64,000 nucleotides of DNA from an uncultured Clostridia bacterium (GTDB taxonomy: Bacteria > Bacillota > Clostridia > Oscillospirales > Ruminococcaceae), in NCBI GenBank assembly GCA_947624675.1, contig CANQLI010000005.1:1-64000 (forward strand). The letters run 5' to 3'. Position numbers and translations under genes: made by a program. The number at the start of each line of letters is the position of its first letter. The stretch's first letter is position 1. This document shows, piece by piece, positions 11,128 through 39,337 of this stretch. The notes under the pieces are model-generated. The model was not told the origin of the DNA. It saw only the letters and a list, made by a program, of their open reading frames with translations, and did no database searches.

Positions 11128-12162
11128 CTACATAATCAAAGTCATTAAAAGAGATACTCCGCTGTTAGCTGCAATATAAGCGAGAAGCGCGTACATCATA
11201 CTGGTTCCGCCTTTTCTCATAAGCAGTTCGTCACGGGTCATATTTTCCATAGGCTCACTCATTATCTGATTTACTTCCTTAGTGACCTTTTTATAGTACC
11301 AGTAATTTGCAAATATCCCGCTTATCAGCCTTGATATTATCGTAATGACTGATATTCCTAAAACGCCGTAAAACATAAGCGGATCGCTCATCTTGTTAGC
11401 AATCGCATTATATATCTGATCATAGCTAGTGATCGTTGACAGATCTATCGAAGACGCAAAAAGCCACGACATAAAGATAGATGTTGCTATTGATATAGTA
11501 AGGTATGTTATCGCCTGTACATACATTTTTCTGAAAAAGAAATAAACATGCGGGAACAAAAGCGCGGGGAAGTTTATTGAGCGTTTTATTCCCTCTTTAG
11601 AAAATCGCAGAAACTTCATAATAAAGTACATAGCGTTTCCTCTTACATATTTATAATACTCCTTTATTCCTATGCCCTCAACTCGTTCAGAGGGGTCTAC
11701 CCCATATGAGCGGCAGAAATAATCAAACGGGTCTGTACTTTGTCCGAACATACCGCCACCGAACGGAGTAGGTCCAAAACCTCCCTGTCCGTAAAAGCCG
11801 CCGCCTCGGTTCTGATAACCGCCGCCGTTATTACCGTATCCGCCGTATCCGGCATTCTGCTGTTCATTATTAAACGGGCGCTCTGTCTCATCCTGCTTAA
11901 GTGCAGCGCCGCAGTGTGAGCAATACTCAAAATCACTCTTATTAAGTCCGCCGCAGCGAGGACATCTTATCTCCTCATCAGCTTCAACATCTGGCGACCA
12001 TATTTTTCCTTCCTCGTGAAGTGAGGTGTTTATACATTTTCCCTCTTTTATATAGCACTCTCTGTGATATGGAGTTCCGCACTCGGGACAAACGACAATA
12101 TCGTCACCGTCTTTAAACTCTTCTCCACAGGAAAAGCACCTTTGACCTTTATAATCCAGCAT
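11128..12162 (-). CDS. Zinc-ribbon/RING-like membrane protein with DUF2628-like domain
   Basis: 344 residues. Two metal-binding modules stand at the N terminus. The first has cysteines and His as CFSCGEEF...CPECGTPYHRECY (about 9-37), like the prokaryotic RING/treble-clef family. The second is a CPRCGG...YCSHCG ribbon (about 65-85). A Gly/Asn/Tyr-rich low-complexity linker (about 100-145) leads to a membrane domain with about four hydrophobic segments (from about 190), whose FPALLFPHVYFFFRKMY start resembles DUF2628. Two GGAGG sites precede the ATG. Function unknown. Nothing indicates ubiquitin-like chemistry. Confidence 0.75.
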   Translation of the reverse strand: MLDYKGQRCFSCGEEFKDGDDIVVCPECGTPYHRECYIKEGKCINTSLHEEGKIWSPDVEADEEIRCPRCGGLNKSDFEYCSHCGAALKQDETERPFNNEQQNAGYGGYGNNGGGYQNRGGGFYGQGGFGPTPFGGGMFGQSTDPFDYFCRSYGVDPSERVEGIGIKEYYKYVRGNAMYFIMKFLRFSKEGIKRSINFPALLFPHVYFFFRKMYVQAITYLTISIATSIFMSWLFASSIDLSTITSYDQIYNAIANKMSDPLMFYGVLGISVITIISRLISGIFANYWYYKKVTKEVNQIMSEPMENMTRDELLMRKGGTSMMYALLAYIAANSGVSLLMTLIM

Positions 12163-17822: not shown

Positions 17823-19583
17823 TTATTGACTTATACCTGACGAAATATAGACTGTGACCTGCTCATTTTCAACAATGTTCACATCATCACCGGGTTTAAG
17901 AGTTTTATCGCCTGAAACAACTCTTGTTATAAAGCCGTACTCAACAGAATCGCTGTACTCATATTCGTATATATAAGAGATCTTACTTTCATTGAGCATA
18001 GTAAAGTAATCGTTTGATGTGATTCCCTCGTAGCTCGGCAATGAAACCTTTCCGCTTCCGACACTTATCTCAAGCTTAAGAGTTAGTCCTCCTGTAGGAT
18101 TGTACTCAACATCGGCAGGAATGCTCTGACTTACGATAACACCCTCATCATACTCGTCGCTTGTTACATCAACCGTCTCAACATAAAAATCGTTTTCGAT
18201 AGATTCCTTAACTCCCTGATAGCTGAGCCCCACAAGATTAGGCATAATCGCTCCCTGTCCGTAATCCATCTCGCTCGTTGCTTCGGTATCTTCCTCATTA
18301 TCCGTCTGATCGGTCACATCGTGTGATGACGGCTGTGTAGTCGCCTGTGAAGAAGGAGCAATGGTTTCAGTCTGTACTATGGCTGAACTTTCATTATTAG
18401 ATGACTCCGGAGTAAACATACTTGCAAGAAGATAAAGTCCTATCCCCACAATAACAGCCAACACGACTGCTGTTATGATAGTCTTTAAAAGATTAGTCTT
18501 ATTCTCCTCGCCGTCCTCCTCATCTTCCGATTCGTCAAAATTTATCTCCGGACGCTTTTTTACCGGGGGCTTTTCACTCTCCTGCTTAGTGATAAGCTGT
18601 GTTGAGCCCTTTTCATGCTCAACAAGCGTAGGCTGTTCAAAAAGCTTTGTGACAAGCTCGGTTATCGTCTGTATACGCTCTTTATGATCAAGACAAAGTC
18701 CCTGCATTATAACATCAGAGATATGCCTTGGCACATCGGGGTTTATCTGCCACAGCGGTGAAATGTTATCAACATTCTGGCGTCTTGTCGCGCTGGGCGG
18801 AGCAGATAGAGAGAGTATCTTGTAAAGCACGGCACACATACCGTAAACATCTGTGTATGTACCAAGCCAGTCTGTTCCCCGATACTGCTCAGGCGCAGCA
18901 TATCCTGGATTAAGGTCCGCCGTAAGGTCGCCGTCAGCAATCCTCGCAGAAGTTATACTGAAGCCGATGAGCTTTATCTCTCCCTTAGTAGTTAAAAGAG
19001 TATTTTCGGGCGAGATCCCGCCGTGGATTATTCCGGCATTGTGTATAAGCCCGAGAGTTGTGAAAATCGGAGGAAACAGTCTTTTGACCTGTGCCCATGT
19101 AAGCTTGTTTCCCGACTTTAAAAACTTTTTAAGAGTAATACCCTCTATATAAGGAGATACCGCATACATCGTATTATTTGCGGCAAACATATCCGTTGCA
19201 GGAACTATATTTGAGAGATTTCTCATCCTTGAAAGGATCTTGTTAAGCTCAGCAAACTCCGCCATATATGTCTTGTATTTATCAACGCTTTGAGAGGATA
19301 CGATCACCTTATTGCTGCCGCTGTTTCTTGTACAAAGGCTTTCCGGCATATATTCGTGAATCACGACCTTTTCGTCATTCATCATATCATATCCGATATA
19401 AGAAGCTCCCTCGCCATTGTAAGACAGCACCTTTCCGACAAGATACCTGTCGTCAAGCGTGGTTTTTGGCGGAAGATATATCTTTATATAGGGCGAATCA
19501 GAAGAATAGCTGCAATAGTCACAGCTTCCGTCTTCATTAAGCTTATTCATACAGCCCATACAAAGCTCCTTTGAATAATCCAT
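17823..19583 (-). CDS. Zinc-ribbon pseudokinase with PASTA domains
   Basis: About 586 residues. An N-terminal CMGCM...CDYC ribbon (about 8-27) precedes a Ser/Thr-kinase-like domain (about 35-305), then an acidic linker, one membrane helix (LLKTIITAVVLAVIVGIGLY) and two extracellular PASTA modules (PNLVGLSYQGVKESI..., LPSYEGITSNDYF...). The layout recalls PrkC/PknB sensors of muropeptides. However, the kinase motifs are broken: the beta-3 Lys is His (VVIHEYMP), HRD is HGG (IIHGGISPEN), and DFG is GFS (KLIGFS). APE survives as AAPEQY. It is therefore probably a catalytically dead sensor or scaffold. ATG 19583 has GGAGG 5 bases upstream. An in-frame ATG at 19616 lacks one. Confidence 0.85.
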   Translation of the reverse strand: MDYSKELCMGCMNKLNEDGSCDYCSYSSDSPYIKIYLPPKTTLDDRYLVGKVLSYNGEGASYIGYDMMNDEKVVIHEYMPESLCTRNSGSNKVIVSSQSVDKYKTYMAEFAELNKILSRMRNLSNIVPATDMFAANNTMYAVSPYIEGITLKKFLKSGNKLTWAQVKRLFPPIFTTLGLIHNAGIIHGGISPENTLLTTKGEIKLIGFSITSARIADGDLTADLNPGYAAPEQYRGTDWLGTYTDVYGMCAVLYKILSLSAPPSATRRQNVDNISPLWQINPDVPRHISDVIMQGLCLDHKERIQTITELVTKLFEQPTLVEHEKGSTQLITKQESEKPPVKKRPEINFDESEDEEDGEENKTNLLKTIITAVVLAVIVGIGLYLLASMFTPESSNNESSAIVQTETIAPSSQATTQPSSHDVTDQTDNEEDTEATSEMDYGQGAIMPNLVGLSYQGVKESIENDFYVETVDVTSDEYDEGVIVSQSIPADVEYNPTGGLTLKLEISVGSGKVSLPSYEGITSNDYFTMLNESKISYIYEYEYSDSVEYGFITRVVSGDKTLKPGDDVNIVENEQVTVYISSGISQ

Positions 19584-19750
19584 AAAGTCCTCCATTCGAT
19601 CAGGGTCGTTACCCATCTTTGATCACAGCAAATCACAGTATGATCTTATGTGATATAACATCAAAAGATTATAAGCTAAAAGCAAAATCATACCCATCGC
19701 CTGACAGACGAAGGGCGACAAATACCAAAGTATCCACAGTTTTTCTATTA
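19584..19750 (-). other. Long 5' leader of the pseudokinase gene
   Basis: About 165 bases of leader follow the promoter. It contains a GC-rich hairpin CGCC/GGCG (about 19697-19716) flanked by purine-rich strings. It does not match the riboswitch classes I know, including c-di-GMP, c-di-AMP and T-box. Function unknown. Confidence 0.4.
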
Positions 19751-20038: not shown

Positions 20039-20785
20039 TTAAAGTCCCGCAGGATACACTGTTTTGACCTTTGAAGAAATATATTCTCCGTCCTTTACCT
20101 CAACGGTAAGAGCTCTTGCCTGTTCATTTTCGGCTGTATCGAGGAAGTAATATTTATATGTGTAAACTTCGGTATCATCTCCCTTATACTCGACGGTATA
20201 AGGATCAATATTGATTTCATTTTCAACTCTTGAAAACTTATCTCCCTTTGAAAACTTGGAAAGCTTTATCTCACCGTCCGTTTCAATTCCCTTGTAGCTT
20301 TCCTCCATAACGGTAAAGTCATAATGAACTACCGACGAGACCTTATCATTATCCGCCATAACGGTTATGAGCCACTTTGGCATAACCACCCCGTCTGCCT
20401 TTACGGTATCTGCTGACTCACATATATAAGAAAACTTGATATAATCGCTTACACCGGAATATGTCGATTTATCCGAAAGGTTAAGATCACTTAGCTTTAA
20501 GACCTCATCGGTAGAATGTCCTATTGTCTTAGACAATATCTGAGCCTTTTGTTCGCTTTCACTTTTTGAAAACTCAATGATCAAAACTGCGATAAGGACT
20601 ATAACTATTATGGCAATAATGCACACTCCTATGATCATTGCCTTTTTATTTTTAGACTTAAACCATATATTCTGTGGATCATTATCCTCTTTTTTTACGC
20701 TGTTAGGCACCACAAGCTCAGCTCCGCAGTTTATGCAGAACTTTTCATCTGATGAATTGTTTGTTTTGCACTTAGGACAAATCAT
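20039..20785 (-). CDS. Zinc-ribbon single-pass membrane protein
   Basis: 248 residues. A CPKC...CINCG zinc ribbon (residues 3-21) opens the protein. A cytoplasmic charged linker leads to a membrane helix (about 50-75, MIIGVCIIAIIVIVLIAVLII). An extracytoplasmic domain of about 170 residues rich in Lys, Asp and Glu follows, which I do not recognise. It starts 18 bases after the topoisomerase A subunit and probably shares that transcript. The same ribbon-plus-helix plan occurs in the pseudokinase encoded just downstream. Function unknown. Confidence 0.7.
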   Translation of the reverse strand: MICPKCKTNNSSDEKFCINCGAELVVPNSVKKEDNDPQNIWFKSKNKKAMIIGVCIIAIIVIVLIAVLIIEFSKSESEQKAQILSKTIGHSTDEVLKLSDLNLSDKSTYSGVSDYIKFSYICESADTVKADGVVMPKWLITVMADNDKVSSVVHYDFTVMEESYKGIETDGEIKLSKFSKGDKFSRVENEINIDPYTVEYKGDDTEVYTYKYYFLDTAENEQARALTVEVKDGEYISSKVKTVYPAGL

Positions 20786-33129: not shown

Positions 33130-34560
33130 CTACTTTTTAAGGAATTTCTTTATCTGCTCATTTGCCTTTTTCAGCTCTGCATCAACAAGAGGAGAAAACT
33201 TTTCCCTTGCTTGCGTCCAAGTGTAAAGATTTCCCTGCTGATCTGCTTCAGACGTACTTGCATAAATTCTGTTTGTCAGAGAAACTCCTGCCTCAAATCC
33301 GCTGTTGTCATCTCCCATAAGCGCGGAAACGCCGTATGCAGGCTCAAAAAGCATAACAACATTTTCCGGGTTTGAAACATCCTTCATTAGCTGATAGTCG
33401 TCTTCCGTCCAGTTCGGATTGTCTGCTAGCCACTTATCTCTTGCATTCTGAAGGTAATCAGGGTCTGTCTGAGCCACTCTGTAACACTCAAAGAACGCTC
33501 TTGCCGCATCCTTCTTATCAGAACCCTTTACCCACATAAACGAGTTGATGCTCGCGGTCGTTATAGGCTTTTCACCGTCATAGCTCGGATCTGCCGGGAA
33601 AGGTACTATTCCCCATTCGTCACTGCCCTGTGGTCCTCCTGTGCCGGTTGCCGCCCAGTCGCCCATTGCGTAAAACAGTACATTCTGTTTGAAGGCTTCA
33701 CCTGCGCTGTTGAAGAAGGTACCGCTCAGTACATATCCCTGCTTGCGCCAATCAGAAAGTCTTTCCTCTGCCGCAGCGATTTTAGGATTGTCAATATTTG
33801 ACTTATACGTCATATTATCATCGGTGGTTACAATGGTTTCTCCTGTCTGCTGAACATACTGAGGTGCGTAAAAACCAGTGATACCGTAACGCTCTTCGTC
33901 ACCGCTTGCACCGCTTACATAAGCGCTCATAAGGTCATCCATCGCGTCATAGTCCCATTCACCCGAATCGTAAAGTGTCCTCGGATCATCAAAGCCGTTT
34001 TCATTTATAACCTTTTTATCGTAGAAGATGTAAGATGAAGGATAGTATTCAATAGGAGCAACATAATGCTTTCCATTAAGAGAATACTGCTCCGCTGTTT
34101 CTTTTACACCTTCCCACATCGGTGTGTTAAAATCAATTATGTCGTCAAGCGGCTGATAAAAGCCCTGTATTACCTGGCACGGAAAAGCAAGAGCGCTGTA
34201 AGGAAACAGATCCGGCGCGTCTTTTCCTGATGCTACCGCTGCGCCAAGCTTTGTATACTGGTTGCTGGATGTTACTCTCTGCCACTTGATCTTTCCGCCT
34301 TTTTGTTCAAAAAGGTTAAGTCCGACCGTCTTCTCAGCATTACGTCCGGGGTTCAAGTCGTAGTTAGCCATCCATAAGAGTGTGTTATCTGCTCCCTCAG
34401 GAATACTTTTAACATCGTCTGTCGTAGCTACATCAACTACATCCTTTCTTGACGATTCATCAGAGCTTCCCGAATCATCCGATTTTGAGCCACATCCGGC
34501 AAACGAGAAGGCACAAATTGCTGCAAGTATTGCCGCAAGAGTTCTTTTAAAATTTTTCAT
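33130..34560 (-). CDS. Extracellular solute-binding lipoprotein (array copy 1)
   Basis: About 476 residues. A lipoprotein signal (basic start, AAILAAICAFSFAGC lipobox) is followed by a Ser/Asp-rich linker. The family 1 sugar-type binding-protein fold is recognisable by landmarks shared with the other three copies: TKLGAAVASGKDAPDLF, YQPLDDIIDF, GKHYVAPIEY, SGDEERYGITGFYAPQ, WVKGSDKKDA, FEPAYGVSALMGDD and the C-terminal LKKANEQIKKFLKK. It should be tethered outside the cytoplasmic membrane. ATG 34560 has GGAGG 7 bases upstream. No permease or ATPase gene adjoins. Ligand unknown. Confidence 0.88.
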   Translation of the reverse strand: MKNFKRTLAAILAAICAFSFAGCGSKSDDSGSSDESSRKDVVDVATTDDVKSIPEGADNTLLWMANYDLNPGRNAEKTVGLNLFEQKGGKIKWQRVTSSNQYTKLGAAVASGKDAPDLFPYSALAFPCQVIQGFYQPLDDIIDFNTPMWEGVKETAEQYSLNGKHYVAPIEYYPSSYIFYDKKVINENGFDDPRTLYDSGEWDYDAMDDLMSAYVSGASGDEERYGITGFYAPQYVQQTGETIVTTDDNMTYKSNIDNPKIAAAEERLSDWRKQGYVLSGTFFNSAGEAFKQNVLFYAMGDWAATGTGGPQGSDEWGIVPFPADPSYDGEKPITTASINSFMWVKGSDKKDAARAFFECYRVAQTDPDYLQNARDKWLADNPNWTEDDYQLMKDVSNPENVVMLFEPAYGVSALMGDDNSGFEAGVSLTNRIYASTSEADQQGNLYTWTQAREKFSPLVDAELKKANEQIKKFLKK

Positions 34561-34716
34561 AATCATTCCTCCATTTCAAATAAAGTGAGTAAAATTATTT
34601 ACAAATTTATTCTAAAACATATTATTAATACAATACATAAATATAATATACATCATAAACAGGATTTATTTCAGTGACTAATATGACATTTATTAGCATT
34701 TTTATGACATACATTT

Positions 34717-34746
34717 AAGAATAAAGGACACCGCAGAGCGATGCCC
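34717..34746 (-). terminator. Terminator after binding-protein copy 2
   Basis: 9-bp stem GGACACCGC (34726-34734) / GCGATGCCC (34738-34746), with two G-U pairs and a 3-base loop. TTTATTCTT follows on the minus strand. Confidence 0.7.
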
Positions 34747-34764
34747 TTTTTCACTTAAAATCAA

Positions 34765-36198
34765 TTATTTCTTTTTAAGAAACTTCTGAATAGATTCATT
34801 GAGCGTCTTTAATTCGCCCTCAACCTTCGGCGACCACTTTTCCTTTGCCTGAGTCCATGTGTATGTGTTGCCCTGTTCGTCAGGAGCAGATGTACACTTA
34901 TAGAGCCAGTTAGTAAGACATACACCTGTCATAAATCCGCTGAAGTCGTCTCCCATAAGGCTTGATACACCATATGCAGGATCAAACAGCATAAGATTTT
35001 TTTCAGGATCTGCTGCGTCTCTCATAATCTGATATGCGTCCTCGCCCCAATTAGGATTGTTTTTAAGCCACTTATCCTTCTGGTTCTGGAGATATGTCGG
35101 GTCTGTCTGTGCAACTCTGTAGCACTCATAGAATGTCTTTACAGTATCCTTATTTTCAGAGCCCTTTACCCACATTACAGAATCGTCCGACATTGACGCA
35201 TTTGCAATCGGCTTATCTCCATCATATGTAGGATCTTTCGGGAACGGAACAACTCCCCACTCATCATCGGTACCCGGCGTATGAGTGTCAATGGCTGCCC
35301 ACTCGCCCATACAGTAGAAGAGAATATTCTCCTTGAACGCGCTTGGCGCATCGCCGATCCAGTCAAACTTAATGTATCCCTGCTTCTGCCAGTCAGCTAA
35401 TCTGTCCATCGCGGAAGCGATCTTCGGATCATCAAGATTTGATGTATATGTGATGTTATCGTCAGTCTTTACAATAGTCTGACCCGTCTGTGCAACATAC
35501 TGAGGCGCAAAGAATCCGTTTATTCCGTATCTCTCCTCGTCTCCGCTTGCGCCCTTACAATATTCGCTCATCATATCGTCAAGAGCATCGTAATCCCATG
35601 AGCCTTCATCGTAAAGATCAATAGGATCGTCTAAGCCGCACTCGGTTATTACCTTCTTGTCATAGAACATAAGAGATGTTACCTTATATCCAAACGGCGC
35701 AATATAATGCTTACCATTCAATACAAACTGATCAGCCGTGTCCTTTACTCCTACCCACATTGGCGAATCGAAGTCAATGATGTCGTCAAGCGGCTGATAA
35801 AAGTCCTTTACTACCTGAGACGGAAAAGCCAGAGCAGTGTAGTTAAATAAATCAGGAACATCCTTTCCTGCAGTTACTGCGGCGCCGAGCTTTGTATACT
35901 GATTCTGCGATGTTACTCTCTGGTACTTGATAGAACCGCCCTTGTCCTCAAAAAGCGCAAGTCCAACGGACCTTTCATTAGAACCAACAGGATTCAGATT
36001 TCCGACTCCCATATACAAAAGCTCTTTTTTTGCACCATCCGGAATATCGGTAATATCCTTTGAAGATACAACTTTAATGGTATCCTCTTTCTTTGAAGAA
36101 GACTCATTACCGTTACTGTCACCACTATCACAAGCTGCAAATGAAAATGTCATAGCTACAGCCATACAGCCTGCGAGTAATCTTTTAAGATTTTTCAT
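34765..36198 (-). CDS. Extracellular solute-binding lipoprotein (array copy 2)
   Basis: 477 residues, full length. The lipobox is FSFAAC after a 20-residue hydrophobic signal. It shares with its neighbours the TKLGAAVTAGKDVPDLF, YQPLDDIIDF, GKHYIAPFGY, SGDEERYGINGFFAPQ and FDPAYGVSSLMGDDFSGF blocks. The middle differs (KQGYIKFDWIGDAPSAF, TPGTDDEWG), as expected if ligand specificity has diverged. It has its own promoter and terminator, so it can be expressed independently. GGAGG precedes the ATG. Confidence 0.88.
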   Translation of the reverse strand: MKNLKRLLAGCMAVAMTFSFAACDSGDSNGNESSSKKEDTIKVVSSKDITDIPDGAKKELLYMGVGNLNPVGSNERSVGLALFEDKGGSIKYQRVTSQNQYTKLGAAVTAGKDVPDLFNYTALAFPSQVVKDFYQPLDDIIDFDSPMWVGVKDTADQFVLNGKHYIAPFGYKVTSLMFYDKKVITECGLDDPIDLYDEGSWDYDALDDMMSEYCKGASGDEERYGINGFFAPQYVAQTGQTIVKTDDNITYTSNLDDPKIASAMDRLADWQKQGYIKFDWIGDAPSAFKENILFYCMGEWAAIDTHTPGTDDEWGVVPFPKDPTYDGDKPIANASMSDDSVMWVKGSENKDTVKTFYECYRVAQTDPTYLQNQKDKWLKNNPNWGEDAYQIMRDAADPEKNLMLFDPAYGVSSLMGDDFSGFMTGVCLTNWLYKCTSAPDEQGNTYTWTQAKEKWSPKVEGELKTLNESIQKFLKKK

Positions 36199-36228
36199 TA
36201 TTATCCTCCTTATATTTTAGATAGTTAT

Positions 36229-36257
36229 ATTATAAAACAATTATTAAAAAATGTCAA
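36229..36257 (-). promoter_or_regulatory. Promoter of binding-protein copy 2
   Basis: TTGACA (36252-36257) and TATAAT (36229-36234) have a 17-base spacer on the minus strand, both consensus. Confidence 0.85.
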
Positions 36258-36358
36258 CTAAGTCATAAATGATACAGGCTATTTTTGTGGTTAATGCACA
36301 AATGGCATTCCGATTATTATGCATATTTGCTAAAATAATATTTGCAAAATAACAAAAT

Positions 36359-36392
36359 CAGAAAATGAGGGTACAGAAAACCTGCACCCTCA
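36359..36392 (-). terminator. Terminator after binding-protein copy 3
   Basis: 11-bp stem TGAGGGTACAG (36366-36376) / CTGCACCCTCA (36382-36392), followed by TTTTC on the minus strand. Confidence 0.8.
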
Positions 36393-36408
36393 CAATCACT
36401 TCATAAAC

Positions 36409-37836
36409 TTACTTTTTAAGAAACTTTTGTACTTGTTGGTTGATAGTTTTAAGTTCACCGTCAACGGTAGTCGAATATTTCTCCTTAAGCTGTGTCCATG
36501 TATACTCAACGCCCTGCTCATCCGGCTTTGTACATCCGTTATACAGCCAACCTGTAAGGTTTACACCGCTCATAAATCCACCGAAATCGTCTCCCATAAG
36601 GCTTGACACTCCGTAAGCCGGATCGAATATCATAAGATTTTCGTTAGGATCGGCAACACTTCTGATTATGTCGTAGTCATCCTCTGTCCAGTTTTTATTG
36701 TCCGTGAGCCACTTATCCTTAGTGTTCTGAACATATGTCGGATCGGTTTCTGCAACTCTGTAACACTCGTAAAATGTCTTTACGGCGTCCTTCTTTTCAG
36801 AACCCTTTACCCACATATAAGCGGTCATATCAGCAGTAGTGATAGGCTTTTCACCGGTGTACTTCGGATCGCTCGGGAAAGGAACAACTCCCCACTCTTC
36901 TCCGCTCGCAGGTCCGCTTGTGCCGGTAGCAGCCCATTCGCCCATTCCATAGAACAGACAGTTAGCTTTAAATGCTTCAGCTGCTGATCCGTACCACGAA
37001 GGCTCAACATAACCGTTTTTCTTCCAGCTTGAAAGTCTTTCCTCTGCCTCAGCTATCTGTGGATTATCCATATTATTCTTAAATGTGATATTATCGTCCG
37101 ATGTTACCATCGTCTGTCCTGTCTGCTGAACGATCTGAAGCGCAAAGTAGCCGTTGATTCCGTATCTTGTCTGATCACCCGAGGCACCGGCACACCATTC
37201 ACTCATAAGGTCCTCCATAGCCTGAACGGTCCACTCCCCTTCATCGTACAACGAAACAGGGTCTTCAAATCCGTTATCTACAATGTTTTTCTTATCATAA
37301 AACAGCATTGATGAAGGATTATAGCTGATAGGAGCTACATAATGCTTTCCGGCAAGTGAATACTGGTCGGCTGTTGACGCAACATCGACCCACATAGGAG
37401 AAGTAAAGTCCACTACATCATCTATCGGTTGATAGAAGCCCTGTACTACCTGACACGGGAAAGCAAGCCATTCATACTTGAATATATCAGGTATCTCCTT
37501 TCCAGATGTGACCGCTGCGCCGAGCTTTGTAAACTTGTTATTAGCAGTAACTCTTGTATACTTTATAGAGCCGCCCTTGTCCTCAAAAAGATTAAGACCT
37601 ACCGATTTCTCATTAGAGCCGACAGGATTTAGGTCGTTCACTCCCATAAAGAGAAGCTCCTTTTCAGCTCCCTCGGGAATATCCGCAATATCCTTAGTGG
37701 TAGCGACCTCTATCTTATCCTTTTGCTTGGATGACTCACTGTCTTTTGTTGAATCGTTTGATCCGCCGCATCCTGCAAATGAAAGCGTCATAAGCACCGC
37801 TATGCAGCCTGCAAACAGTTTCTTTAAGTTTTTCAT
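36409..37836 (-). CDS. Extracellular solute-binding lipoprotein (array copy 3)
   Basis: 475 residues. The lipobox is LSFAGC. Landmarks common to the array include TKLGAAVTSGKEIPDIF, YQPIDDVVDF, GKHYVAPISY, YGINGYFALQ, WVKGSEKKDA and FDPAYGVSSLMGDDFGGF. The Trp/Tyr-rich pocket regions (SWKKNGYVEPSWYGSAAEAF) differ from copies 1, 2 and 4. Only 76 bases separate it from copy 4 and no terminator is visible between them, so copies 4 and 3 may share a transcript. GGAGGG precedes the ATG. Confidence 0.88.
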   Translation of the reverse strand: MKNLKKLFAGCIAVLMTLSFAGCGGSNDSTKDSESSKQKDKIEVATTKDIADIPEGAEKELLFMGVNDLNPVGSNEKSVGLNLFEDKGGSIKYTRVTANNKFTKLGAAVTSGKEIPDIFKYEWLAFPCQVVQGFYQPIDDVVDFTSPMWVDVASTADQYSLAGKHYVAPISYNPSSMLFYDKKNIVDNGFEDPVSLYDEGEWTVQAMEDLMSEWCAGASGDQTRYGINGYFALQIVQQTGQTMVTSDDNITFKNNMDNPQIAEAEERLSSWKKNGYVEPSWYGSAAEAFKANCLFYGMGEWAATGTSGPASGEEWGVVPFPSDPKYTGEKPITTADMTAYMWVKGSEKKDAVKTFYECYRVAETDPTYVQNTKDKWLTDNKNWTEDDYDIIRSVADPNENLMIFDPAYGVSSLMGDDFGGFMSGVNLTGWLYNGCTKPDEQGVEYTWTQLKEKYSTTVDGELKTINQQVQKFLKK

Positions 37837-37912
37837 ATTTCCCTCCTAGAATGATTATCAAAAAAGCACAACTAAAGATTTAATGTTTTATATTTATAGT
37901 TGTTATTAACCT

Positions 37913-39337
37913 TTACTTATCGGTTTTAAGAAACTTCTGTATCTGCTTATTTATGGTGGTAAGCTCACCTTCAACAGTAGCTGAGAATTTCTCCTTAGAC
38001 TGTGTCCAGGTATAAGTCTCTCCCTGTTCATCGGCAACAGATGTACTCTTGTAAAGCCAGTTTGCAAGACATACTCCTGACATAAATCCACTGAAGTCAT
38101 CGCCCATAAGACTTGATACACCGTAAGCCGGATCAAATATTAAAAGGTTGTCATCAGGATTTGATATTTCAGCCATCAGATCAAAGTCGTCTTCAGTCCA
38201 TGTCGGGCTGGCAAGCATAGCCTTTTCTCTTCCGTTTTTAGCGTATTTTTCATCAGTCTGTGCAATTCTGTAGCACTCAAAAAATGCTCTTACGGCGTCT
38301 TTCTTTTCAGATCCCTTTACCCACATAAATGTAGTGATCGTTGCGGATGAAATAGGCTTAGTTCCTTCATATGTAGGATCCTTCGGGAACGGTACCATTC
38401 CCCAGTCTCCCTTCTCAGCAGGACCGTTTGTACCCATAGCTGCCCATGTTCCCATCGAGTAAAACAGTACATTCTTCTCAAAAGCTTCTGCTGCGGAGCC
38501 TATCCAGTTAGGTTCAATATAGCCCTCTTTCTTCCAGTTTGCAAGTCTGTCCATTGCAGCGGCGATCTTCGGGCTGTCAAGATTCGACTTATATGTAATA
38601 TTATCGTCAGTAGTAATAAGCGTTTCACCCGTCTGCTGAACATACTGAGGAGCATACCAGCCATTTATTCCGAATCTTTCTTCATCTCCGCTTGCGCCCT
38701 TTACATAATCGCTCATCATATCGTCCAAAGCGTCATAATCCCATTTTCCCTCATAGTAAAGGTCAATAGGATCGTCAAATCCGTTTTCGGTGATCACGCT
38801 CTTATCATAAAACAGCATAGCCGTTAATCCGTATTCAAGCGGAGCCACATAGTGCTTTCCGTTTAAAACAAACTGATCAGCCGTTTCTTTTACTCCGCTC
38901 CAAAGAGGTGCGTTAAAATCAATAATATCGTCAAGCGACTGATAGAAGCCCTGTACTACCTGACAAGGAAAAGCAAGCGTACTGTATGAAAACAGGTCCG
39001 GTGCATCTTTTCCGGCAGTTACTGCAGCTGCAAGCTTTGAATACTGATTGCTTGATGTAACTCTCTGATACTCGATCTTTCCTCCCTTATCTTCAAAAAG
39101 GGTAAGTCCTACCGTTCTGTCATCATTGTTAGTCGGGTTAAGATTGTAAAGTCCCATATATGTAAGGGTACCGTCCTGTCCCTCTGCGATAGGAGCTATA
39201 TCGTTTTCGGTAACGACCTTTACATCCTCTTCTTTTTTTGAAGAAGATTCCTCATTTCCTCCCGAACCGCAGGCAGCAAACGACAGTGTCAAAACAAACG
39301 CAAGCGTTCCTGCCAGCAGCTTTTTCATTTTGTTCAT
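37913..39337 (-). CDS. Extracellular solute-binding lipoprotein (array copy 4)
   Basis: 474 residues. The lipobox LSFAAC follows a signal with Met-Asn-Lys-Met-Lys-Lys. It carries the array's common blocks TKLAAAVTAGKDAPDLF-like (here YSKLAAAV), YQSLDDIIDF, GKHYVAPLEY, SGDEERFGINGWYAPQ and FDPAYGVSSLMGDDFSGF. As the first-transcribed copy it has a long leader with a 10-bp inverted repeat and an extended -10 promoter element. GGAGG precedes the ATG. The ligand is probably a sugar or oligosaccharide by family, not shown by sequence. Confidence 0.88.
   Translation of the reverse strand: MNKMKKLLAGTLAFVLTLSFAACGSGGNEESSSKKEEDVKVVTENDIAPIAEGQDGTLTYMGLYNLNPTNNDDRTVGLTLFEDKGGKIEYQRVTSSNQYSKLAAAVTAGKDAPDLFSYSTLAFPCQVVQGFYQSLDDIIDFNAPLWSGVKETADQFVLNGKHYVAPLEYGLTAMLFYDKSVITENGFDDPIDLYYEGKWDYDALDDMMSDYVKGASGDEERFGINGWYAPQYVQQTGETLITTDDNITYKSNLDSPKIAAAMDRLANWKKEGYIEPNWIGSAAEAFEKNVLFYSMGTWAAMGTNGPAEKGDWGMVPFPKDPTYEGTKPISSATITTFMWVKGSEKKDAVRAFFECYRIAQTDEKYAKNGREKAMLASPTWTEDDFDLMAEISNPDDNLLIFDPAYGVSSLMGDDFSGFMSGVCLANWLYKSTSVADEQGETYTWTQSKEKFSATVEGELTTINKQIQKFLKTDK

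Follow-up and report, generated by a model that had tools for sequence, protein, structure and literature searches.

Gene and domain organization

The window, which is the whole stretch of DNA analysed (64,000 nt of contig CANQLI010000005.1 from an uncultured Clostridia bacterium, assembly GCA_947624675.1), carries a gene for a predicted zinc-ribbon PASTA pseudokinase (Table 1). Its neighbours are pfkA on one side and, on the other, a gene for a zinc-ribbon protein that has a hydrophobic segment; a topoisomerase pair is located upstream. The longest ORF has 597 codons and starts at 19616; the ATG at 19583, Met12 of that frame, is a plausible start codon given the GGAGGA just 5′ of it.

Table 1. 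Positions of the pseudokinase gene and its features in the window
Feature	Position	Strand	Remarks
Whole gene, zinc-ribbon PASTA pseudokinase	17823..19583	(-)	586 codons + stop
Putative N-terminal CxxC-x9-CxxC ribbon, residues 18–38	19503..19565	(-)	Cys19, 22, 32, 35
Pseudokinase domain, ~residues 54–330	18627..19457	(-)	Pfam Pkinase and profile alignment with PpkA
Beta3 Lys position, His87 (VVIHEYMP)	19356..19358	(-)	180 orthologues: R 109, K 45, H 17, other/gap 9
AlphaC Glu position, Leu124	19245..19247	(-)	Glu in 65/65 active relatives, 0/180 orthologues
HRD to HGG, residues 198–200 (Gly200)	19017..19025	(-)	Asp position in 180 orthologues: G 162, A 16, E 1, L 1
DFG to GFS, residues 218–220 (Gly218)	18957..18965	(-)	Asp218 retained in 25/180
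Juxtamembrane Thr peptide KGSTQLITK, residues 336–344	18585..18611	(-)	Counterpart of KGATQTIPI in relatives
Single membrane helix, residues 379–400	18417..18482	(-)	Hydropathy, best 20-residue mean 2.59
First PASTA module	18078..18248	(-)	35.1 bits in whole-genome Pfam scan
Second, weaker PASTA module, ~residues 523–594	17835..18050	(-)	Second Pfam stretch; limits inferred

A Pkinase (PF00069) match covers residues 108–322 of the window protein (74.9 bits against a Pfam gathering score of 31.7), and a PASTA match is divided over two stretches (51.3 bits against 23.2), the first of which alone is reported by the whole-genome Pfam scan at E ≤ 1e-3. The membrane helix is the one hydrophobic segment of the protein. 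Such a helix followed by PASTA modules is the layout of the PASTA Ser/Thr kinases (NF033483), which the window protein shares; its score against NF033483 is 139.8 bits, below the curated NCBIfam cut-off of 450. Among the 53 orthologues scanned with Pfam, all have a Pkinase match at E ≤ 0.01 and all have PASTA.

The four ribbon cysteines are conserved in the alignment of both dead and active relatives. They are present in 15/15 members of the genus and in 123–124 of the 125 other orthologues, the remainder being gaps; of 20 orthologues added later, one exception (L232) lacks the ribbon in its ORF. No zinc-ribbon Pfam model matches the window protein, and it is from the sequence that the putative ribbon is presumed to bind zinc. 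The original prediction, made from the letters alone, had placed a CxxC ribbon upstream of the kinase domain and a single membrane helix with a pair of PASTA modules downstream, an arrangement on which Pfam, alignment and hydropathy agree; the conservation of the ribbon cysteines, which it proposed as a check, is likewise borne out apart from the later exception.

Catalytic residues

Residue equivalences were taken from a profile alignment with PpkA and from an alignment with active relatives, the ‘active’ group of 65 sequences being defined by its HRD Asp. Four of the five canonical catalytic residues (K, E, D, N, D) are gone from the window protein, namely the beta3 Lys, the alphaC Glu, the HRD Asp and the DFG Asp; Asn205 of the catalytic loop is the sole survivor. 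His for the beta3 Lys, HGG for HRD and GFS for DFG had been read from the sequence at the outset, with APE and the overall fold landmarks remaining, and all three motif readings are correct. The loss of the alphaC Glu and a changed glycine loop can be added to them. The loop reads NGEGA in the window protein, with Asn67 in 146/160 and Glu69 in 147/160 orthologues, positions at which the active relatives have Gly (65/65) and Phe (64/65), respectively. The structural residues Glu243 (APE), Asp256 (alphaF), Arg279 and Arg314 are invariant in 160/160 orthologues.

The HRD Asp is present in 0/180 orthologues from 180 genomes. The beta3 Lys is found in 45/180, Asn205 in 73/180 and the DFG Asp in 25/180, and of the canonical five residues 67 orthologues keep none, 83 keep one and 30 keep two, which is the maximum. 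The protein therefore qualifies, at the level of sequence, as a pseudokinase by conserved loss of catalytic residues across its orthologues. The window's genus accounts for most cases of His at beta3 and of Gly in place of the HRD Arg; across the family, the change is that of the HRD Asp to Gly or Ala. A substitute Lys or Asp supplied elsewhere in the fold, which had been named as a finding that would speak against a dead kinase, is not evident. Lys115 was considered as a general replacement for the catalytic Lys and rejected: this position is Lys in 140/140 members of the window's family and in only 2/20 of the sister families, where it is mostly replaced.

With the residues that do persist, some members may still bind nucleotide. 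These residues are also an argument for a non-canonical enzyme, whose fold would bind nucleotide and catalyse a different reaction, for instance AMP transfer, or keep a residual kinase activity, and other bacterial pseudokinases have been modelled with unusually bound ATP, in AlphaFold3 models and not in experiments (PMC12599244). However, the window protein retains Asn205 alone of the five and has Glu69 in its glycine loop, and both the HRD Asp and the alphaC Glu are absent in 180/180 orthologues, so that enzymatic activity of this sort is considered unlikely. AlphaFold models of the window protein, from shallow five-row inputs (window plus four orthologues), have a mean pLDDT of 32.3 at full length and 45.4 for the ribbon and kinase, values too low for either model to be relied on.

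Distribution and selective constraint

The pseudokinase gene is found in 15/15 genomes of the window's genus, in each as an open frame of 585–658 codons with no internal stop. The 180 orthologues come from 180 genomes and 82 genera within three families of one order (160 in f1, 19 in f24 and 1 in f23). They consist of best hits plus 20 lower-scoring or further ones, those 20 likewise without the Asp, and cover 150 of 297 genomes of the window's family, a further 10 genomes from the genus and 20 from other families; the other 147 of the 297 are outside the count, and only well-scoring loci were taken outside the window's family. The counts exclude the PrkC rows L001 and L029, the duplicate rows L002, L028, L055–L058 and L161–L165, and two ORFs that do not encode a kinase of this type. 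Three of the 140 window-family rows (L078, L109 and L116) are partial.

At E ≤ 1e-93 the family profile has matches, not all inspected residue by residue, in 263/297 genomes of the window's family and in 208/221 of the good ones. This cut-off was set just above the best active relative examined in the family (1.8e-92) and is imperfect, as two inspected pseudokinases scored 1.8e-90 and 7.7e-90. In a separate search of these genomes, at E ≤ 1e-20, there are matches in 282/297, some of which may be cross-hits to active kinases, and no match in 15/297 (4/221 good ones). The matches to the family profile suggest that the gene is widespread in the window's family and probably near-universal, with some real or assembly-made absences.

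In five within-genus pairs, dN/dS is 0.017–0.049 for the ribbon and kinase, 0.03–0.116 for the ectodomain and 0.035–0.229 for the juxtamembrane region and helix, and the dead kinase domain is the best-kept part in each pair. When the window gene is compared with those genus members for which synonymous sites are unsaturated, the kinase part has a dN/dS of 0.035–0.153. Judged by these ratios, the pseudokinase is under strong purifying selection; kept in many related genera, it is a working part of the cell. A sequencing error, which the original prediction had named among the findings that would speak against it, or a decaying gene has virtually no probability left: the frames are long and open throughout the genus, the catalytic Asp is absent across 180 genomes, and constraint is strongest in the dead domain, which rules out both error and decay. 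Nothing was found in favour of either, and the dead kinase is real.

The same ratios bear on a decoy role, the titration suggested in the original prediction, in which the PASTA ectodomain would bind muropeptides or lipid II and so leave less ligand for PrkC, with the cytoplasmic part serving mainly as an anchor. The presence of PASTA in every scanned member agrees with such a role. Yet it is the cytoplasmic part that is the most constrained, more so than the ectodomain, and as a mere anchor would not need such constraint, a decoy is regarded as very improbable.

Origin on the kinase tree

A tree of 104 kinase domains was built with the catalytic columns masked, by a quick search without bootstrap and with SH-aLRT support. 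Of the 54 Asp-less sequences, 52 group in a single clade (SH-aLRT 100) that lies within a set of intact ribbon-bearing kinases, which indicates from the sequences a single early loss of the catalytic Asp in the pseudokinase clade. The nearest active sisters of this clade are supported moderately (SH-aLRT 81–89). Near active relatives (L192, L194, L197 and L219) have an intact kinase, four to eight PASTA modules by Pfam and the ribbon Cys in the alignment. Because the nearest active relatives already carry all three parts, the combination of ribbon, kinase and PASTA is probably ancestral, with a single loss of catalysis. Among relatives of solved structure, PpkA is the closest by sequence profile (1.6e-42), ahead of the PrkC-type kinases. 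The original prediction of a dead homologue of a PASTA kinase thus holds as far as ‘dead’ is concerned, but descent as a dead copy of PrkC is rejected, since the tree places the clade among, and derives it from, intact zinc-ribbon ‘KEYxP’ kinases. With living active cousins, some of them in the same genomes, the lineage displays one kinase-to-pseudokinase transition.

The intact ribbon kinases at L194, L192, L197 and L219 stand in tandem with a second such kinase and have PASTA repeats, some with additional Ig-like or RCC1-repeat domains. An FHA hit lies within ~6 kb of intact ribbon kinases at three loci (G077:C18, G029:C99 and G016:C1).

Among 26 relatives outside the order, 24 have HRD and two have HGN. 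The latter are further ribbon kinases, L225:953-2347 (+) and L226:1-1410 (-), the second of which directly adjoins an intact kinase. Since both fall outside the pseudokinase clade they look like separate pseudokinase events, with the limit that the two ORFs are long branches whose placement in the tree is unsure.

Relation to known kinases and pseudokinases

The window protein shares its kinase fold, single membrane helix and C-terminal PASTA modules with the PrkC/PknB PASTA kinases (NF033483) but is without the catalytic Lys, Asp and Asp, has an N-terminal ribbon and belongs to another branch of the kinase tree. Its closest sequences come from its own class, where the intact zinc-ribbon ‘KEYxP / HRDISPDN’ kinases (labelled PpkA-like here) have the ribbon and a KEYxP-type beta3 in common with it. 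All 65 of these kinases retain K, E, N and the DFG Asp, with the HRD Asp present by definition of the group, and they are often found in tandem.

Two published systems are similar in kind. The mycobacterial MviN (MurJ) pseudokinase, ActPs3, is likewise a dead kinase tied to wall synthesis and a PASTA kinase, and is a phosphorylation target of PknB (PMC12599244). It differs in architecture and lineage and has an FHA protein as partner, whereas a search of the window genome for FHA finds none at E ≤ 1e-3; membership of the ActPs3/MviN group by an FHA-domain partner is accordingly not seen in the protein's own genome. In Clostridioides difficile, CD2148 is likewise a membrane kinase-like protein without catalytic residues, several conserved residues being missing; it becomes phosphorylated in vitro only when PrkC is present, and it has an effect on PrkC-dependent phosphorylation and on the phosphorylation of CwlA (PMC9674922, PMC8262956). 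CD2148 has no PASTA, and its likeness to the window protein is drawn from the published description; its authors neither settle nor exclude pseudokinase status (PMC9674922, PMC8262956). By analogy, the window pseudokinase would work like MviN or CD2148.

The DYD pseudokinases are membrane-bound proteins of Firmicutes with a beta3 Arg and no alphaC Glu, as here (PMC12599244). The orthologues of the window protein, in contrast, are without the DYD motif and of a GF[CSA] type, with Phe219 at the motif centre in 138/140 members of the window's family and 18/20 of the sister families, and have lost the HRD Asp. They were therefore not assigned to that group.

Bacterial pseudokinases are mostly without experimental characterization, and the families named in a 2025 review are ActPs1-3, GLW, CP1, DYD and DLHK (PMC12599244). 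In the main text of that review the word ‘zinc’ is absent and ‘PASTA’ occurs once, as part of a reference title, so none of its families is described there as ribbon plus PASTA. The literature searched likewise contains no paper on a ribbon and PASTA pseudokinase family. The published atlas of 42 bacterial kinase families is outside this comparison and may group the clade under a general name. Set apart by published descriptions, this is a new family of bacterial pseudokinases, of an already known kind.

Juxtamembrane threonine peptide

Many members have KGATQTIPI-like peptides between the kinase and the membrane helix. The pattern TQTI.[ILVM] is found within the first 40 residues in 46/137 members of the window's family, against 0.015 expected from shuffles (maximum 1), and in 0/20 members of the sister families and 0/59 active relatives. 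The broader pattern T[IVA]x[hydrophobic], within the first 25 residues, is found in 76/137 window-family members (shuffled mean 9.4, maximum 18), in 19/44 non-redundant members (2.9, maximum 9) and in 10/20 sister-family members (2.5, maximum 7), compared to 4/59 active relatives (2.5, maximum 8). Both patterns were chosen after inspecting the sequences, and the window protein's own KGSTQLITK (STQLI) matches neither.

In mycobacteria, a hydrophobic residue at +3 is enriched around phospho-Thr sites that fall on depletion of PknA; for PknB, nothing significant emerges in the phospho-Thr surroundings, with too few sites (PMC7164672). By analogy with the PknA-dependent sites, phosphorylation of the juxtamembrane Thr by PrkC is plausible.

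PrkC and the gene neighbourhood

Four ORFs of the window genome (2.08 Mb, 49 contigs, 99.99 % complete) match Pkinase: PrkC, a kinase–AAA fusion, the window pseudokinase and a small kinase-like ORF. A true kinase elsewhere in the genome, which the original prediction had supposed, was located by the whole-genome search: PrkC is intact and of the active type, has three PASTA modules with a PP2C gene alongside, and is the sole canonical PASTA kinase there, on a different contig from the pseudokinase gene. IreB, which acts in the PrkC pathway, is also present. PrkC is found in 120/128 genomes of the window's family (96/96 good ones), and in 60/61 of these with an inspected pseudokinase, the exception (G089) being 83 % complete. 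As PrkC is so common in the family, its co-occurrence with the pseudokinase says little.

An FHA match is present in 44/128 genomes of the window's family. Given this and its absence from the window genome, an FHA reader of the MviN–FhaA type cannot be general and was rejected as a general partner.

No constant neighbour is apparent over 125 loci, with flanks of ~8 kb at most and often 3–4 kb or less; the largest shared neighbour group comprises 23 loci. The shared neighbours are metabolic or unrelated, as judged by eye from sequence (Pfam was run on the neighbours of the window gene only), and gene neighbourhood was rejected as a functional clue. Immediately upstream of the window gene, at 20039-20785 (-), lies the gene for the zinc-ribbon protein, in which one hydrophobic segment was recognized by eye; its cluster is found at 16/125 loci, the window included.

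Lack of linkage to prkC, lack of a constant neighbour and strong constraint on the cytoplasmic part would all suit a scaffold independent of PrkC, whose dead kinase and ribbon would bring proteins of division or wall synthesis to sites marked by PASTA. However, the enrichment of the Thr motif over shuffles suggests, without proof, a phosphorylation input, and the precedents are tied to PrkC or PknB. A PrkC-independent scaffold is considered possible but doubtful.

Possible function

The reading favoured here, with middling confidence, is a membrane-anchored pseudokinase receptor, a wall-sensing scaffold, modulator or substrate that would be coupled to PrkC and would not act as an enzyme. The two PASTA modules would face the wall, with the ribbon and dead kinase fold on the cytoplasmic side as a binding platform. 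The PASTA modules may sense peptidoglycan or lipid II. The pseudokinase could dock on PrkC or on PrkC substrates, either by kinase–kinase contact or by way of PrkC phosphorylation of the juxtamembrane Thr, and such docking would steer the output of PrkC on wall growth and division. As the window genome is without FHA, any reader of the phospho-Thr would differ from that of MviN.

A fuller version of the PrkC-coupled receptor is offered only tentatively. Wall state would be read by PASTA, PrkC would phosphorylate the TQTIxI-type peptide, and a non-FHA phospho-Thr reader or PrkC itself would bind; the receptor, vertically kept, probably near-universal in one family and also found in sister families, would have started out as an active ribbon-PASTA kinase and become a docking platform gated by phosphorylation.

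Wall-control pseudokinases are few. A dead PASTA receptor in 82 genera, with a living PrkC in the same cell, represents a natural separation of sensing and scaffolding from phosphotransfer, and the role of a PASTA receptor without catalysis becomes a directly testable question.

Other features of the window and genome

The kinase–AAA ATPase fusion of the window genome (L002:1438-3192 (+), contig C23) has HNE (IIHNEVSIQN) at the HRD position. On contig C2 of the same genome, L007:1378-1971 (+) encodes a protein of 197 aa that looks lipoprotein-like by eye and has two PASTA modules as its only Pfam matches, its gene directly following that for quinolinate phosphoribosyltransferase. Within the window, a protein with Prok-RING_1, zinc-ribbon and DUF2628 matches is encoded at 11128-12162 (-). 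Additionally, four tandem ORFs of 474–478 aa, with a mutual identity of 58–65 %, occupy 33130-39337 (-), and the one that was scanned matches extracellular solute-binding proteins.
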